Positions 2,366 through 23,716 of a stretch of 32,244 nucleotides of DNA are shown here, piece after piece. A model generated the notes under the pieces. That model worked only from the letters and a program-made list of their open reading frames with translations, was not told the DNA's origin and searched no databases. This DNA is from a virus. How positions within the stretch are numbered: position 1 is the first letter of the stretch; each line of letters begins with the position of its first letter. Both the position numbers and the translations under genes were made by a program. Location: positions 1-32,244 of the IMG/VR virus record IMGVR_UViG_3300013126_000135; one strand, 5' to 3'.

Positions 2366-4753
2366 TCAGTACCGATCCCAGCCCCTGCTCGAACTCGGCG
2401 CAGGGTCCTGCTGCTGGCTTTGCGCTGTCCTCTCTGCGTAGTAGACCCGGCCGAGCTTGCCCTTGTGGCCCTGCACCCCAACGTCGCGCAGGGCCTGCAC
2501 GATCCGGTGGGTCTCGGTCGGGCTCGGCGTCTTGGTCGCAAAGCTCGGAAGTGCGCGGCAGATCTCCGCCAGGCTCACGCCACGCGGTGGCCTGGTCACG
2601 TCGAAAGGGGCGCAGGCCTGCCAGTGGTCGCGCACCTCGGCTGCCAGTGCGTCGTCCGGCTCGTGGTCGCTGTTCACCGCGCTGAGCCGCGCCAGCTCGT
2701 CGTCGTCCAGCCACCACCGGGCAGACGGTTGGCGGGCCTCGACCGCCATCTGGGCCCAGAGCTGCTGCACGTCGATCCCGTGCTCGGGGTGGCAGCGCTC
2801 GATCGGCACGGTCCACCAGCGTCGGTTGCCGGTCTTGTCCACCAGGTAGTGCTCGGGATTGACGCTGGCGAAGAACGCCGTGCGCCGGATCACCCGTTCC
2901 TCTCGTCGGGCGTAGGCGCTACGATAGGTATCGCTCTCTTGCGTGACAAAGGCCTTCAGCGCCGCGATGTCGCTGCGCTTGAACGTGGCGTCTACCTCGC
3001 CCAGCTCGCAGAGCCAGACGCTCGTGGCGGCTTGCACGCTGTCGCGGTCTCTGGGGTCGAGCATGCGCCCGGTCAGCACCCACGCGCTGCCGGGTGGTGC
3101 CAAGCTGCGCAGCCAGCGGGTCTTGGCCCTCCCCTGCTCGCCCTGGAACACTAGAACGCCCTGAGCCGCAAAGCGCCCGTCGAAGTCGGGCAGGATTGCT
3201 GCCGCCGCGCCCACCAGCCAGCGGTAGATCAGCAGGCCGCACAGCTCCCGATCCTGCACGCATGCCTGTAGCTCGACGCTGGCCAGCAGTTCGGGCAGCC
3301 GGTCCACGCCATCCCACGGCTTGCTCTGCACCCACTGCAGCACCGGGTGGTACTCGCGGGCCAGCTCGTTCAAGTGCTTGAGGATCGGCGCCCGGGCCAG
3401 TCCATGCTCCGCCGCCCTGTTCTCCACCCAGTCGAGCGCCACGTTGGCGCTGCGCTCCTGGTGTACCTTGAAAGTTGGGATCTGCACTTCCAGCTGGTGC
3501 GTCATGAGGTTGTAGCGCACCTCGGCCCCAAAGTGCTGCAGCAGAGCCGCGGTGTTCCTCGCATGGTCCTTGACCGGCTTGCCCCGCTCGCGCACCGGAA
3601 AGGTCAGCCGCCCGGGCTTGTTTGTTTGTGCGTCGAGCTTGTTTGTTTGTGCGTCGAGCTTGTTTGTTTGTGCGTCGAGCTTGTTTGTTTGTGCCGGCGC
3701 CTCGCGCTTGCGCGTGGGTGCTGATCCTCGCGCCGTAGGCGCAGCCGGCGGATCGTCGCCGTCGTCGAAGAACGGCCGGTCCTGCAATCCGATCCCGGTC
3801 TGTTCTGCTTCAGCTCGCCACTGAGCTGCGCCCTCCTGCAGCTCGGCCGTGTAGCCCCCGCCACCTTCCATCGGCCGCTCGGCTTTTGGGCCGCCCTTGC
3901 CCGAGCGCTTGGCGCTCTGCAGCTTCTGGCGCAGCTCGGCCTCGCCCCACGGGGGCGCGCAACGGGCATTCCACTGCCACAACAGTGCCCAGGCCTCCGC
4001 GTCGTGCAGCTCGAAGTCGTGCACCAGCGTGCATGCGGTGACGAACGTGTGATCGTCTCCGCGGGCGCCCTGCACGGCGCCGTCGCGCTTGGCAATCCAG
4101 GCCTCGGCACGCACAAGCCGCCGATCCTCGCTCCTGCCTCGCTTCAACCTCGCTTCACCCTCGCTTTGTGCTGGCTGCATCAGCTCGGGTTGTTGCGCCT
4201 GCTGGCTCGGCAGCCATGCCAGATCAAACACCGGGATCGACTCGACCGGCGGCAGCGGTCCATCGAACGCCCAGCGGTACAAGCCGCCAGACGGGTGCAC
4301 GCTGCCCGGCAGCACGATCTGGCTGCCGTCTCCGTACAGGTCGCCGCCTTGGTGCACCACGCTGCGGTCCTTGCGGCTGTCCGGCAGGTGCGGCACCTCG
4401 AGCTTGCGCTTGGGAACTGGCACGCCCACCGGCCAGCGGTAGATCAGGTGACCGCCATGCCCGCTGCCGCTCACCGTGCGCAGGGGCGTGGGTGGAAAGT
4501 GATCGAGCGCCCAGGCCAGCCACGCGTCGCCGTCCAGGTCGAGCGCCACCCAGCCAGTCGCACCGCAAATCAATCCCACGTTGGCGTCGGGGTGCTGGCC
4601 CCAGTACGCCCGCACGTCCACCTCTGTCATGCGCAGTTGCTGCCAGCCCTGCACGGCCGGCGCCTTGTCGCGTGGTCGCAGTGGGTGGATCGTCAGTCCG
4701 TAGCTCAGCAGTTCCAGAGCGGTCTGCTGCATTGTTGGTTTTTTATCAATCAT
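2366..4753 (-). CDS. Primase-polymerase fused to VirE-type helicase (replication initiator)
   Basis: This 795-aa replication protein has two parts. The N-terminal part (about residues 10-190) resembles the bifunctional primase-polymerase (AEP) fold, with PLRPRDKAP near 25-32, the metal-binding DLDGD at 72-76 and GGDLYGDGSQIVLPGS. The C-terminal part (about 395-720) is a virulence-associated-E/D5-like ATPase with DWVENRAAEHG upstream, a P-loop GEQGRAKT at 538-545, and the family signature DKTGNRRWW. The P-loop has Ala where most relatives have Gly just before the Lys. A low-complexity linker with repeated LDAQTNK lies between (about 354-379). The start is ATG at 4753; the in-frame TTG before it is less likely. 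It likely primes and unwinds phage DNA at the iteron block that follows it. Confidence 0.88.
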   Translation of the reverse strand: MIDKKPTMQQTALELLSYGLTIHPLRPRDKAPAVQGWQQLRMTEVDVRAYWGQHPDANVGLICGATGWVALDLDGDAWLAWALDHFPPTPLRTVSGSGHGGHLIYRWPVGVPVPKRKLEVPHLPDSRKDRSVVHQGGDLYGDGSQIVLPGSVHPSGGLYRWAFDGPLPPVESIPVFDLAWLPSQQAQQPELMQPAQSEGEARLKRGRSEDRRLVRAEAWIAKRDGAVQGARGDDHTFVTACTLVHDFELHDAEAWALLWQWNARCAPPWGEAELRQKLQSAKRSGKGGPKAERPMEGGGGYTAELQEGAAQWRAEAEQTGIGLQDRPFFDDGDDPPAAPTARGSAPTRKREAPAQTNKLDAQTNKLDAQTNKLDAQTNKPGRLTFPVRERGKPVKDHARNTAALLQHFGAEVRYNLMTHQLEVQIPTFKVHQERSANVALDWVENRAAEHGLARAPILKHLNELAREYHPVLQWVQSKPWDGVDRLPELLASVELQACVQDRELCGLLIYRWLVGAAAAILPDFDGRFAAQGVLVFQGEQGRAKTRWLRSLAPPGSAWVLTGRMLDPRDRDSVQAATSVWLCELGEVDATFKRSDIAALKAFVTQESDTYRSAYARREERVIRRTAFFASVNPEHYLVDKTGNRRWWTVPIERCHPEHGIDVQQLWAQMAVEARQPSARWWLDDDELARLSAVNSDHEPDDALAAEVRDHWQACAPFDVTRPPRGVSLAEICRALPSFATKTPSPTETHRIVQALRDVGVQGHKGKLGRVYYAERTAQSQQQDPAPSSSRGWDRY
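3617..3694 (-). repeat. 3.7 copies of an exact 21-bp tandem repeat inside the primase gene
   Basis: Exact 21-bp units run at 3617-3637, 3638-3658 and 3659-3679, followed by a 15-base partial copy to 3694. They encode the heptad LDAQTNK, repeated in the linker between the primase-like and helicase-like domains. The repeat is in frame, so copy-number change would alter only linker length. The Asn/Thr/Gln-rich composition differs from the surrounding Ala/Arg/Pro-rich protein. Confidence 0.95.
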
Positions 4754-4769
4754 CAAGCAACCTTGGTGG

Positions 4770-19056: not shown

Positions 19057-21486
19057 TCAGACCCCCTTGGCCTTGGCCAGACCGCTGCCGCTCAGGCTGC
19101 CCAGAGCTCCCTGCACCGCCACGCCCACCTGCTGGGGCGTGCCCACGACGAAGCCCTTGCCGAAGTACAAGTTGACCACTTGGCCGCCTTGGCCGCTTCC
19201 AGATCCGCCGCCTATGGCACCATCGCCACCGGCGCCAGCTCCGCCCACGCTCGGCACGCTGGGCGCTCCGCCGCCGCCGCCGATCACGCCGGCCGCCACG
19301 CTGCCGTACAGCACCGCCGCCGCACCGTGCGCAACCATAGCCGGAATGTTGGGATAGCTCGCCACCGCGGCGGCTGCCTCGGTCACTGCCAAGATTGCCG
19401 CCTTCTCTCGCTCGCCGTCCACGAAGGCCGCAGCCACGCCGCCCACCGCGCTGATCGCGTCCGGGGCGCTCTGCTTCATGCCCTTCCAGTTCTGGCTCAC
19501 CTGCTGCACGCCCTGAGCTGCTGCGGTCAGCGCCTTGCCCAGCTTGGCGCCCGGGCCGCCGCTGCTCGTCATGAGCGCAGCCGGCGCCTGAATGGCTTGC
19601 GCGATCTGGGTCACAGACTCGCGCAGCCGAGCGTTGCGATCTGCGTCGGCCCGGTTGAGCCGATCCTGGTATGCCTCGTACGCCTGCGCCTGCTGCTCGA
19701 GCTGCTGCCGCTCGAGGTTGGCGCGGTCGGCCGAGCCCTCCACCGTCTTGTCGAGCTGGCCCTGCAGCTCGTTGTCGATCCGCGTCACCTCGGCCTGGTA
19801 GTCGAGCCACGCCTGCCGCCGCTCCACCAGGTCGGCCCGCTCGAAATCCCCCGCCTGGCGCAGCCGGTCTGCCAGAGCCGCTGCACGCTGGCTCGCTCCC
19901 TTGGTCACCACCTCTGCCGTCTTGGTCGCAATCTCGGCCGAGCGCTGGGCGCCGGCCTGCATGGTCGCCACCAGCTCGTCCTGCACCTTCTGCGCTGCGT
20001 CGATGTCCGCTTGCTCGAGCTGGCGCCGCTTCTCCGCATACTCGAGCCGGATCGCCTCAATCGCCGCTTCCCGCCCCTTGGCGGTGTTGGCGTCGCGGCG
20101 GGCCTTCTCGATCTCGGCCTGTTCCTGCAGCTTGAGCTCGCGCTGCCTCAGCCCGGCAACCTGCCCAATGGTCAACAGGCTTTGTCCCGCCGCGTCGGCC
20201 TCCGCCTTGGTCAGCCGGATCCGCGCCGCCAGCTCGGCATCGTGGGCCTGCTGCGCCTTCTGCCGGCGGGCCTGCAAATCGGCAACCGCCTGCTTGCCCA
20301 GCGCCTGATCCTGCACCGCCAGCCCCAGCACAGCCGCCTGCAGCCCGGCCAGCTCTCTGCGGTAGGTCAGCTCGTCCACCAGGCCTTTGCGGTGCTGATC
20401 GCGCAGCAGGTTGATCTGGCGCTCGATCTCGCTCGACTTGGCCGCCGAAACGTTGAGCCGCTGCTGCAACGCGTCGCGCTTGTCCATCGTCGCGTTGGCG
20501 CGGGCTTCTTCCACGGCCAGCTCGGCCGCGATCACACTGGCCATAGTGGCGCGCTGCTGCTGCGCCGCGGCCGCCTGCTGCTGCTTCTCGACCACCGCTT
20601 GCAGCTCGTTGGCCTCGTCGCGGGTCTTGGCCACCAGCTCGTCCTGGGCGTCCACCTGCCGCTGCAGCTCGCTCATTTGCCGCTGCAGTTCGATCCGTTT
20701 GATCACCGGAGCGCTGGCCGCCTGCTTCTCGATCTCGTCCATGCGCGCAGCCAGTGCCTGCCGCTCGCGGTCGAGCACCACCGTTTGCTGCGCTGCCACC
20801 TTGGCCCGCTCGGCCTCGTTGCCGATCTGCGAAGCGATCCCCAGCGCGTCACGCGACAAGCCCAGCCGATCGGCCACGCTCGGCAGGTCGATCGACCCCG
20901 CCGCCAGCCGGCCAAACTCGCGCTCGAACGCCTTGAGCGCTTCAGGGCCCTTGCCCAGAGCCTCGACGAACTTGGTGGCCGCCTCGGCGCCTTCCTTGCC
21001 CATCGCCTGAGCACGCGCCTGCACGCTCGTCAACAGCGCCTCGCTCGGGCGCAGCGCCAGCGGAATGTCCTCGAGCGCCTGCTGCAGCTTGATCGCCTCG
21101 TCCACGCTCAGGCTCAGCCGATCGGCCAGCCCACGCGTGCCCGCGTTGCCCAAGCTCTGCACCTTGGCCTCGGTCTCGCTCAGGTGCTTGTAGAGCAGAT
21201 ACCCTGCCGCAGCCGCCACGGTCAGGCCGGCGCCGATCATGCCGATCGGGCCCGGAATCACCTGCAGGATCTTCTCGGCGCCGCCGAACACGTCGGCAAT
21301 CTTCTGCACCGGCCCGGGCAGCTGGCCCACCAGGTCACGCACGCCAAGCAGGCCTTTTTCAAGGTCGCCGCTCGACTCGGCCATGCCCTTGAGACCTTCC
21401 CGGGCCTCGTGCACCGCCTCCTTGGCCTTGTTCTCGCCAGAGATGCTGATCTTGGTCTCGACGCGTGACGCCGCAAACGTGCTCAC
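19057..21486 (-). CDS. Tape measure protein
   Basis: This 809-aa protein starts with GTG at 21486 behind GGAGGTGCAAAA, overlapping the chaperone GT stop as GTGA. It is dominated by long Ala/Gln/Glu/Arg-rich helices and coiled coils (about 100-640). A hydrophobic segment lies at about 79-98 (GPIGMIGAGLTVAAAAGYLL) and a Gly/Ser-rich C-terminus is followed by NLYFGKGFVVGTP. That composition and position after the tail chaperones are typical of tape measures, which set tail length (at about 1.5 A per residue this suggests a tail near 120 nm) and enter the host envelope. No lytic transglycosylase or peptidase motif was found. Confidence 0.9.
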   Translation of the reverse strand: MSTFAASRVETKISISGENKAKEAVHEAREGLKGMAESSGDLEKGLLGVRDLVGQLPGPVQKIADVFGGAEKILQVIPGPIGMIGAGLTVAAAAGYLLYKHLSETEAKVQSLGNAGTRGLADRLSLSVDEAIKLQQALEDIPLALRPSEALLTSVQARAQAMGKEGAEAATKFVEALGKGPEALKAFEREFGRLAAGSIDLPSVADRLGLSRDALGIASQIGNEAERAKVAAQQTVVLDRERQALAARMDEIEKQAASAPVIKRIELQRQMSELQRQVDAQDELVAKTRDEANELQAVVEKQQQAAAAQQQRATMASVIAAELAVEEARANATMDKRDALQQRLNVSAAKSSEIERQINLLRDQHRKGLVDELTYRRELAGLQAAVLGLAVQDQALGKQAVADLQARRQKAQQAHDAELAARIRLTKAEADAAGQSLLTIGQVAGLRQRELKLQEQAEIEKARRDANTAKGREAAIEAIRLEYAEKRRQLEQADIDAAQKVQDELVATMQAGAQRSAEIATKTAEVVTKGASQRAAALADRLRQAGDFERADLVERRQAWLDYQAEVTRIDNELQGQLDKTVEGSADRANLERQQLEQQAQAYEAYQDRLNRADADRNARLRESVTQIAQAIQAPAALMTSSGGPGAKLGKALTAAAQGVQQVSQNWKGMKQSAPDAISAVGGVAAAFVDGEREKAAILAVTEAAAAVASYPNIPAMVAHGAAAVLYGSVAAGVIGGGGGAPSVPSVGGAGAGGDGAIGGGSGSGQGGQVVNLYFGKGFVVGTPQQVGVAVQGALGSLSGSGLAKAKGV

Positions 21487-22291
21487 TTTTGCACCTCCAG
21501 ACGCCTGCGCAGCGTCACCAGCCCCCACGCCAGCCAAGCCGGGTAGCTGTCCGGCCACCCTGCAACCGGGCCGATCCTAGCGCATTCGTGCAGGGATAGA
21601 AGCGCCTGGAACTGAGCGCCACGCAGTAGCCCGAACGGGCAAGCCGTCCACTGCCCGCCCGGAAGCTCGGCGCCCTCTGGCACCTCGTGGCACTCGCCCG
21701 CCCTGCAGCGGCATGGCCACACCCGGCGGTACAGCGGCTCTTTTTGCCAGATCGTCAACAGGTGCGGCAGAAGCGTGACCCAGGTGGCCGGCTCGCCGTC
21801 CACCGCCACCCAGGTCAGTTTCCCCAGGTGTGATCCACGATCGCGTAGTACAGGGGCGTGATCAGGTGTGCCGGCGGATTGGCCAGGAACTGCTGCACCG
21901 CCTCGGCCGAGCCGTCCAGGTTCACCAGGCACAGCTCGAGCACGCGCCGGATGTTCTGCTCAGGCGGCAGCCCGGTGACCTCCTGATCCTCGTGCCAGCT
22001 CAGCGAACGGATCGTCGCCACCGTCGCGCCCTGGTGCTTCGCACACTCGTCCAGCCCAACCCAGACGCGTGGCAGCTGAGCCTCGGCCACGTTGGCCTCG
22101 GCCAGCTTCTGCGCTTCTTGCTGCTGCTGCTCGGTGGCTTCCTTGGGCAGTGCAGCCAGCACGGCCCGCACCTGGCGCCGTCGCCAGGTGTCGAGCCGCC
22201 GCTGCAGTGCCTCGGGCCTCAGCTCCACGCTGGGGTCGCCCGTGAAAACCAGTTGCGCCGTGCGCGCCGTGCTCGTCGTGATCAGTGCCAT
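21483..22291 (-). CDS. Tail assembly chaperone GT fusion made by -1 frameshift
   Basis: This is the extended product of the G gene. The ribosome slips back one base on GGGAAAC (21824-21818), immediately before the G stop at 21817. It then reads CTG ACC TGG onward in the -1 frame to the stop at 21483, adding 111 residues to give about 269 aa. The added part begins LTWVAVDGEPATWVTLLPHL, is Cys/Trp/Pro-containing and has no good start of its own. The size and arrangement match the lambda G/GT pair, in which the minor GT product links the tape measure to tail tube subunits during tail assembly. The call is made from the slippery sequence, overlap and gene order. Confidence 0.85.
21815..22291 (-). 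CDS. Tail assembly chaperone G
   Basis: This 158-aa protein is the unshifted product. It starts with ATG at 22291 behind GAGGATTGCAGCACC and is mostly helical (ATEQQQQEAQKLAEANVAEA) with a charged C-terminal half ending YYAIVDHTWGN. It lies between the major tail protein and the tape measure, the usual position for the chaperone that coats the tape measure before tube polymerisation. Sequence conservation in this family is low, so function rests on location, size and the frameshift site at its end. Confidence 0.85.
   Translation of the reverse strand: MALITTSTARTAQLVFTGDPSVELRPEALQRRLDTWRRRQVRAVLAALPKEATEQQQQEAQKLAEANVAEAQLPRVWVGLDECAKHQGATVATIRSLSWHEDQEVTGLPPEQNIRRVLELCLVNLDGSAEAVQQFLANPPAHLITPLYYAIVDHTWGN
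21818..21824 (-). promoter_or_regulatory. Programmed -1 frameshift slippery site GGGAAAC
   Basis: On the minus strand the 0-frame codons are TGG GGA AAC TGA. This gives the canonical X-XXY-YYZ heptamer G GGA AAC, with the stop immediately downstream. Shifting to GGG AAA keeps most pairing and opens the -1 frame to 21483. The stop right after the site would itself promote pausing. No obvious downstream pseudoknot was traced. Confidence 0.88.
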
Positions 22292-22336: not shown

Positions 22337-23716
22337 TTACGCCAGCGCGATACGGAACACGCTGTCCAGCGGGCTGTCGGCGCTGGTCTCGGCCGTATCG
22401 GTGCTGTCGCCGGTGTAGGTGCCGGCCTCGAACTGCACCGTGTACGCCTGCAGACCGTCGCGGTCACCGATCGACGGCACCGCCACCACCCGGCCGGCCG
22501 GCAACAGCATGCCCAGGCACTTGCCCACGCTCGGGCCCACGTAGATCCCCAACGAGTGGGTGGTGCCGAGCTCGAGGCTGGCCTGCCACACGTGGCTGCC
22601 GGTGTTGCCCGCGACGCCGGCCGCGTCGTACACCGTGTCGTCCTTGTCGTGCGGCACGCTGAAGCTGAGCGCCACCCGCGGCTTGATCACCGAGATCGAG
22701 CCAATGCCCTGCGGGGCGTAGTGGCACTTGTTCTCCTTGATCGTCGCCTTCCACTCGATCGCCACGGCCTCGAGGCCGCACTTGATCGACGCGTCGAGCA
22801 TGGCTATGCCGCTCTTGGTGCCCACCAGCTGGGGCGTGCGGGCGTAGCTGTCGGGCACCACCAAGCCGCCCTTGGTCTTGTCCATCTGGTAGTCGTAGAA
22901 CTTGAACGTGAACTCGATCGTGGGCGTGCTGCCCGCGTCGAGCTGCAACTTCCAGCTCTCGCACACCAACCCGGTCAGCACGTAGCAGTACTTGGTGTCC
23001 GGGCCCACCCAGTAGGCGGTAATGTACTTGGGCTGATCGTCGCTCAACCACGCCGTGGCCGTGCCGTAGACGTTGGCCGCGTTGTCGTCGTAGTTGGCCG
23101 CCGGGGCCCGACCGGCCTCGAACAGCGTCATGAGATCGACCACCTTGGTCTTGATGAAACCGAGCAGCGGGGCCACCGTGCCAGACACCGCAGCCGCGAT
23201 CAGCTCGCCCGCCTTGTGCAGCGCGCCCTCGCCGCCGTCGCCCTGCACGTTGGTGCTGTCGGTGCCCGCCGCCGTGACCTTGGCCGCGCCGTAGTCGCTG
23301 CTGCTCAGGAACGTGCCGCGCCAGAAGTTGGTGTTCTTTTCGCTGAGCGTGACGCCGACCAGCGCCTCGACGTTGCAGCCCAGAGCGTTGGCCGCCAGCA
23401 CCAGCCACGGCGGCACCACCTCGGCACCGCTCGCCGGGGCCTCGCCCGGATCCTCGGCCGTGGGGTCGTAACCCGTCTTGAAGCCCTGCAGCGGAACCGC
23501 AAACGTGATCGAGCCCGAACGCCGGCCCACGATCCGCTCGGGCGCCGCTCCCACCTGCCCGGTGGTCAGCTCCATCTCTTGCGTCTCGGTGGCGAACGTC
23601 ACCTTGGGGGTGTCGCACAGCAGCGCCTGGAACTCATTGGCCGCCAGGGTGCTCGGGGTGGTCAGGTCGTCCTGCAGCGCCAGCAGCAGAGAATGATCGG
23701 TCCAGAACTGCGCCAT
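22337..23716 (-). CDS. Major tail (tube) protein
   Basis: This 459-aa protein starts with ATG at 23716 (MAQFWTDHSLLLALQDDLTT), behind a purine-rich site. It is beta-rich with many Gly/Thr/Asp turns, for example GSITFAVPLQGFKTGYDPT and STPTIEFTFKFYDYQMDKTK, and ends with VQFEAGTYTGDSTDTAE, a closing strand region. Position between neck genes and tail chaperones is the tube-protein position in siphoviruses. It is longer than many tube proteins, which suggests an extra domain, probably in the C-terminal half. No immunoglobulin-like domain is obvious. Assignment rests on context, size and beta character. Confidence 0.78.
   Translation of the reverse strand: MAQFWTDHSLLLALQDDLTTPSTLAANEFQALLCDTPKVTFATETQEMELTTGQVGAAPERIVGRRSGSITFAVPLQGFKTGYDPTAEDPGEAPASGAEVVPPWLVLAANALGCNVEALVGVTLSEKNTNFWRGTFLSSSDYGAAKVTAAGTDSTNVQGDGGEGALHKAGELIAAAVSGTVAPLLGFIKTKVVDLMTLFEAGRAPAANYDDNAANVYGTATAWLSDDQPKYITAYWVGPDTKYCYVLTGLVCESWKLQLDAGSTPTIEFTFKFYDYQMDKTKGGLVVPDSYARTPQLVGTKSGIAMLDASIKCGLEAVAIEWKATIKENKCHYAPQGIGSISVIKPRVALSFSVPHDKDDTVYDAAGVAGNTGSHVWQASLELGTTHSLGIYVGPSVGKCLGMLLPAGRVVAVPSIGDRDGLQAYTVQFEAGTYTGDSTDTAETSADSPLDSVFRIALA

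Follow-up and report, generated by a model that had tools for sequence, protein, structure and literature searches.

Genes G and T of an uncultured tailed phage very probably form a tail-assembly chaperone pair that is expressed by programmed -1 ribosomal frameshifting at the heptamer GGGAAAC. As the original prediction had proposed, a slip at this sequence would join G and T in a GT fusion product, and this reading is supported by comparison with relatives: at 13 of 14 distinct G/T junctions, representing 11 lineages, T is found in the -1 frame, and the overlap of the two frames contains a canonical heptamer in register.

The window, i.e., the whole stretch of DNA that was analyzed, is a virus record of 32,244 bases (IMG/VR record IMGVR_UViG_3300013126_000135), and is a metagenomic contig. 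The site described in the original prediction is confirmed, with the addition, which it left unsaid, that all of the genes concerned are on the minus strand:

22337-23716, minus strand: tail tube protein, 459 aa, assigned by PF18906 (Phage_tube_2) and by relatives
21815-22291, minus strand: gene G, predicted tail-assembly chaperone, 158 aa, ATG start and TGA stop at 21817-21815, assigned by the ORF, the fold model and homologues in the same position
21818-21824, minus strand: slippery heptamer GGGAAAC in the register G_GGA_AAC, read from the sequence
21776-21817, minus strand: putative stimulatory hairpin with a 12-bp stem directly after the heptamer, the first pair using the T of TGA
21483-21818, minus strand: T segment of 111 aa and its stop codon, read in the -1 frame; joined to G it would make a fusion of 269 aa
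19057-21486, minus strand: putative tape measure protein, 809 aa, assigned by position, length and composition

G ends in TGG GGA AAC TGA, with GGGAAAC in the X_XXY_YYZ register at 21824-21818 and directly abutting the stop codon, and the -1 frame runs on for 111 codons; the heptamer, its placement and the product sizes of 158 and 269 aa were all predicted correctly. Two overlapping ORFs, the second in the -1 frame, are what the DNA contains between the tube gene and the gene labeled by position as tape measure. The predicted order of tube, G/GT and tape measure stands for the tube and G/T, while the label of the third gene is based on position, size and composition, its best match being a weak PHROG (E 0.077) and no significant tape-measure family match being found. 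The tube match to PF18906 is barely over threshold (27.7 bits against a cut-off of 27). The 809-aa ORF starts with a GTG that overlaps the stop codon of T and is preceded by GGAGG, and the order tube, G/T and long ORF also occurs in relatives. Elsewhere in the window, a 796-aa protein combining Prim-Pol with a VapE-like primase-helicase is encoded at 2366-4756 on the minus strand.

In the proposed mechanism, most ribosomes would terminate at TGA and release G, and a minority, with tRNAs on GGA and AAC, would slip one base back to GGG and AAA and then read CTG, yielding the GT fusion of 269 aa. If the pair works as in lambda, the tape measure protein would be coated by many copies of G and few of GT, with T recruiting tube subunits. 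In the window phage and its closest relatives, the slip rate would probably be raised by a stable hairpin that reaches down to the heptamer.

Relatives were gathered by terminase, capsid, tube and T scans, and consist of IMG/VR contigs and one contig from a Myxococcales MAG (L029). The G/T DNA and the G, T and tube proteins had no match in a collection of 50,697 phage records, single-sequence scans with G or tube had none in the viral contig collection, and a scan of the genome contig collection with the tube protein had none. In an alignment of eight sequences, tube identity to the window falls from 76 to 33%. Contigs with terminase or capsid that fall short of the junction (L003, L006, L008-L011, L025) were excluded from the count, as was L034, which stops at the tube gene. 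The junction of L005 is the same as that of L004, and L036 and L037 equal L035 and L033, respectively, over the 2040 nt compared, and each of these pairs was counted once; L027, L033 and L035 were treated as one lineage. L029 (CAIYWC010000024.1, 44 kb) was binned with the genome of an uncultured member of the Myxococcales, which is either a hint of the host or the result of mis-binning a free phage.

Conservation of the heptamer in relatives, a check that had been proposed with the original prediction, is borne out in register across the 11 lineages. The site is GGGAAAC in seven of them (the window, L002, L004, L007, L029, L030 and the L027/L033/L035 group), GGGTTTT in one (L026) and CCCTTTR in three (CCCTTTG in L020 and L049, CCCTTTA in L048); where the heptamer has been altered, it is replaced by another canonical heptamer, while the proteins diverge. 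In L027 and L030 the tryptophan is replaced by alanine (GCG GGA AAC) with the heptamer retained, and the heptamer therefore outlives the codon that it overlaps. The direct contact of stop and slip site, which had been regarded as a strong arrangement, is present in the window, however, it is kept in only four of the 11 lineages (the window, L002, L007 and L030); in the remaining seven, the stop lies 3 to 12 codons beyond the heptamer. Stop adjacency is not a conserved requirement.

The same comparison bears on whether the frame break could be a sequencing or assembly error, or the mark of a decayed gene, with G and T being in reality one ORF. The window is a metagenomic contig, which would allow for such an error, however, independent contigs that originate from different samples share the break down to the residue, with stop codons and stop positions that differ, and we consider this explanation extremely improbable.

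The word GGGAAAC alone means little, because the window holds two copies of the string against 2.5 expected. Register is more discriminating: sampled structural genes of nine contigs, with 10,105 in-register positions, contain ten canonical X_XXY_YYZ heptamers, of which nine are at the G/T junction and one is in the capsid gene of the window. The latter, GGGAAAG at 25846-25840 on the minus strand (codon 140 of 307), is probably due to chance; it was not found in the other sampled capsid genes, and the -1 frame at this site is open for at least 100 codons. When G of the window was shuffled synonymously, 317 of 2000 shuffles brought a heptamer back into the overlap, and over 13 loci the number ranged from 44 to 544 of 2000, depending on the locus. 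The evidence from the single sequence is therefore modest, and it is the comparison across the family that carries the case. Furthermore, GGA accounts for 1 to 9% of glycine codons in seven contigs, yet each of the seven GGGAAAC lineages uses it at the slip site; no joint probability is given for this usage, because the lineages share ancestry.

If T were a separate gene, whose translation followed termination of G by reinitiation or coupling, it would have to use a weak start of its own. The window offers GTG at 21932, apart from which no ATG, GTG or TTG precedes the slip in the T frame, and a further two GTG codons a short way past the junction. The GTG at 21932 has no Shine-Dalgarno match, in agreement with the earlier claim that T has no good start. 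The relatives are more restrictive: in L007, the T frame lacks ATG, GTG and TTG as far as 90 nt beyond the junction, and in L030, where G and T overlap by 10 nt, only three bases of the open -1 frame precede the heptamer. Judged from their reading frames, T in these two phages can hardly be reached except by shifting. A separate gene would, moreover, have no need of the in-register heptamer seen at 13 of the 14 junctions. The second ORF thus lacks a start of its own in the window, L007 and L030, and may differ in this respect in L028, where an ATG is preceded by GGGAGGGGGTCG and could serve as a T start. Taken together, a separately initiated T is very unlikely, although not to the same degree as an artifact.

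L028 is the most distant member of the family (capsid identity 32%, tube identity 20 to 23%), and its T homologue (L028:8985-9374) is offset from G by +1/-2. Either T is self-initiated in this phage, or the shift differs, being -2 or +1 at the G run; -2 and +1 shifts are described for other tailed phages (PMC5009743). The original prediction had stated that relatives with an independent start for the downstream frame would speak against it, and one remote relative, L028, possibly has such a start, while T is in the -1 frame at the other 13 of the 14 junctions.

The preferred reading, frameshifting into T, is consistent with how the T protein is conserved. Conservation starts near the junction, with V4 and G8 invariant in nine sequences, and each of the ten pairwise comparisons among five sequences has its nucleotide differences in T mostly at third codon positions of the -1 frame. 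T has diverged less than G: relative to the window, L002, L004 and L007 are 68, 66 and 54% identical in T, and 50, 47 and 42% identical in G.

The hairpin downstream of the heptamer had been omitted from the original description of the site and was found here by folding and covariation. In the window, a folding energy of -27.1 kcal/mol was obtained for the 50 nt that follow the heptamer, a value reached by 0 of 500 synonymous shuffles of T. Nine loci were folded (L033, L035, L048, L049 and L028 were left out), and four of them fold well below their shuffles: besides the window, these are L002 (10 of 500 reach the observed energy), L004 (2 of 500) and L026 (0 of 500). L029 is borderline with 27 of 500, and no signal was obtained for L007 (78 of 500), L027 (121), L030 (126) and L020 (368). 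In the outer stem, the first 12 bases after the heptamer pair with bases 31-42. Across the window, L002 and L004, 35 of 36 cells pair and four of the 12 pairs are changed on both sides, and no both-side changes occur in any slid register. With L029 added, 41 of 48 cells pair, and the fold of L029 itself uses a register shifted by one. These compensatory changes support a hairpin in close relatives; it is not family-wide.

What the hairpin does is a matter of weighing this evidence. Since the stem begins immediately at the site, a ribosome positioned on the heptamer must have its lower pairs opened, and it would be the upper stem that acts as a roadblock. Judged on sequence evidence, a stimulatory role appears reasonably probable, and it is not rated higher in view of the small number of sequences, three, and of the fact that the region encodes protein. 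The competing view accepts the frameshift and takes the hairpin for a by-product of the T coding sequence that has no role. It draws on the loci that lack a signal or are borderline, on the window energy, which ranks 13 of 234 in its region, and on a covariation that involves three to four sequences only. The stability relative to synonymous shuffles in the window, L002, L004 and L026, and the four pairs changed on both sides among three sequences in the true register but in no slid one, count against it, and we regard it as conceivable but falling short of probable.

Searches of G and T against Pfam, PHROGs and NCBIfam gave nothing of weight. The model of G (pLDDT 86.8) has HK97 gp13 as its top Foldseek match, a weak one at E 0.87. 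Comparison with 272 chains in VIA-align placed 3FGX first (Z 6.3) and 2OB9 second (Z 6.1), with the next chain at 4.9; the alignments, with Z below 8, cover 80 residues at 14% identity for 3FGX and 83 residues at 11% for 2OB9. The G model contains two extra helices at residues 26-70. As 3FGX and HK97 gp13 are both described as tail assembly chaperones (PMC9603447), the predicted fold of G appears chaperone-like and may point to a chaperone function. The model of T (pLDDT 86.8) retrieved nothing usable from the PDB or BFVD, and a missing match of this kind is not evidence of a new fold. T has cysteines at positions 36, 38, 43, 60 and 79, of which C38 and C60 are invariant in nine sequences, and the cluster C36, C38, C43 and C60 is a possible metal site. 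The points that weigh against frameshifting of a chaperone pair are the T frame and possible ATG of L028, the frequency with which synonymous shuffles of G restore a heptamer, the shared ancestry of the lineages, the modest fold match of G and the lack of a significant tape-measure match for the 809-aa ORF.

Tentatively, and with more doubt than confidence about the picture as a whole, the family may be described as one in which the slip site is swapped among GGGAAAC, GGGTTTT and CCCTTTR, L028 has replaced the -1 shift by a +1/-2 shift or by initiating T separately, one branch carries a covarying hairpin flush with the heptamer, and T has a cysteine cluster that is possibly metal-binding and is without a fold match. 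In an uncultured phage group, two short ORFs that are unmatched in the libraries searched can now be named and joined in annotation. The slip site and the putative stimulator vary naturally in the family, which makes it useful for studying how the ratio of G to GT is upheld in tailed phages.

The lambda heptamer is GGGAAAG, compared with GGGAAAC in the window phage. As described for lambda, a -1 shift near the end of G gives a short and a long product (PMC5009743), and the window phage resembles it in the site between tube and putative tape measure, the predicted shift near the end of G and the two predicted products; it differs in that no sequence relation is detectable in the libraries searched, and in that a covarying hairpin abuts the site. 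Burkholderia phage KL1 is reported to make gp18/gp19 products of 142 and 264 aa with a stem-loop downstream (PMC3483164). Its sequence reads GCG GGA AAC TGA, and also has the heptamer directly before the stop, however, there is an extra gene before the tape measure, and the 50 nt downstream fold at only -6.1 kcal/mol. Against the T and G profiles (hmmsearch --max), the KL1 proteins gave E 0.21 and 0.32, which is no detectable homology between G/T and the gp18/gp19 family. HK97 gp13 (2OB9) and Rbstp2171 (3FGX) are the chains ranked nearest to the G model among the 272 compared, a modest match at 11 and 14% identity, respectively. Chaperone frameshifts at GGGAAAC are reported for Caulobacter phage Colossus (PMC3556154) and the archaeal virus HCTV-1 (PMC5009743), both of which have this heptamer in common with the window, and for tail assembly chaperones PRFect reports 2397 annotated frameshifts among the genomes of SEA-PHAGES (PMC10885494). 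The mechanism is already established and the arrangement is in print for KL1; the sequence family is new to the libraries searched.
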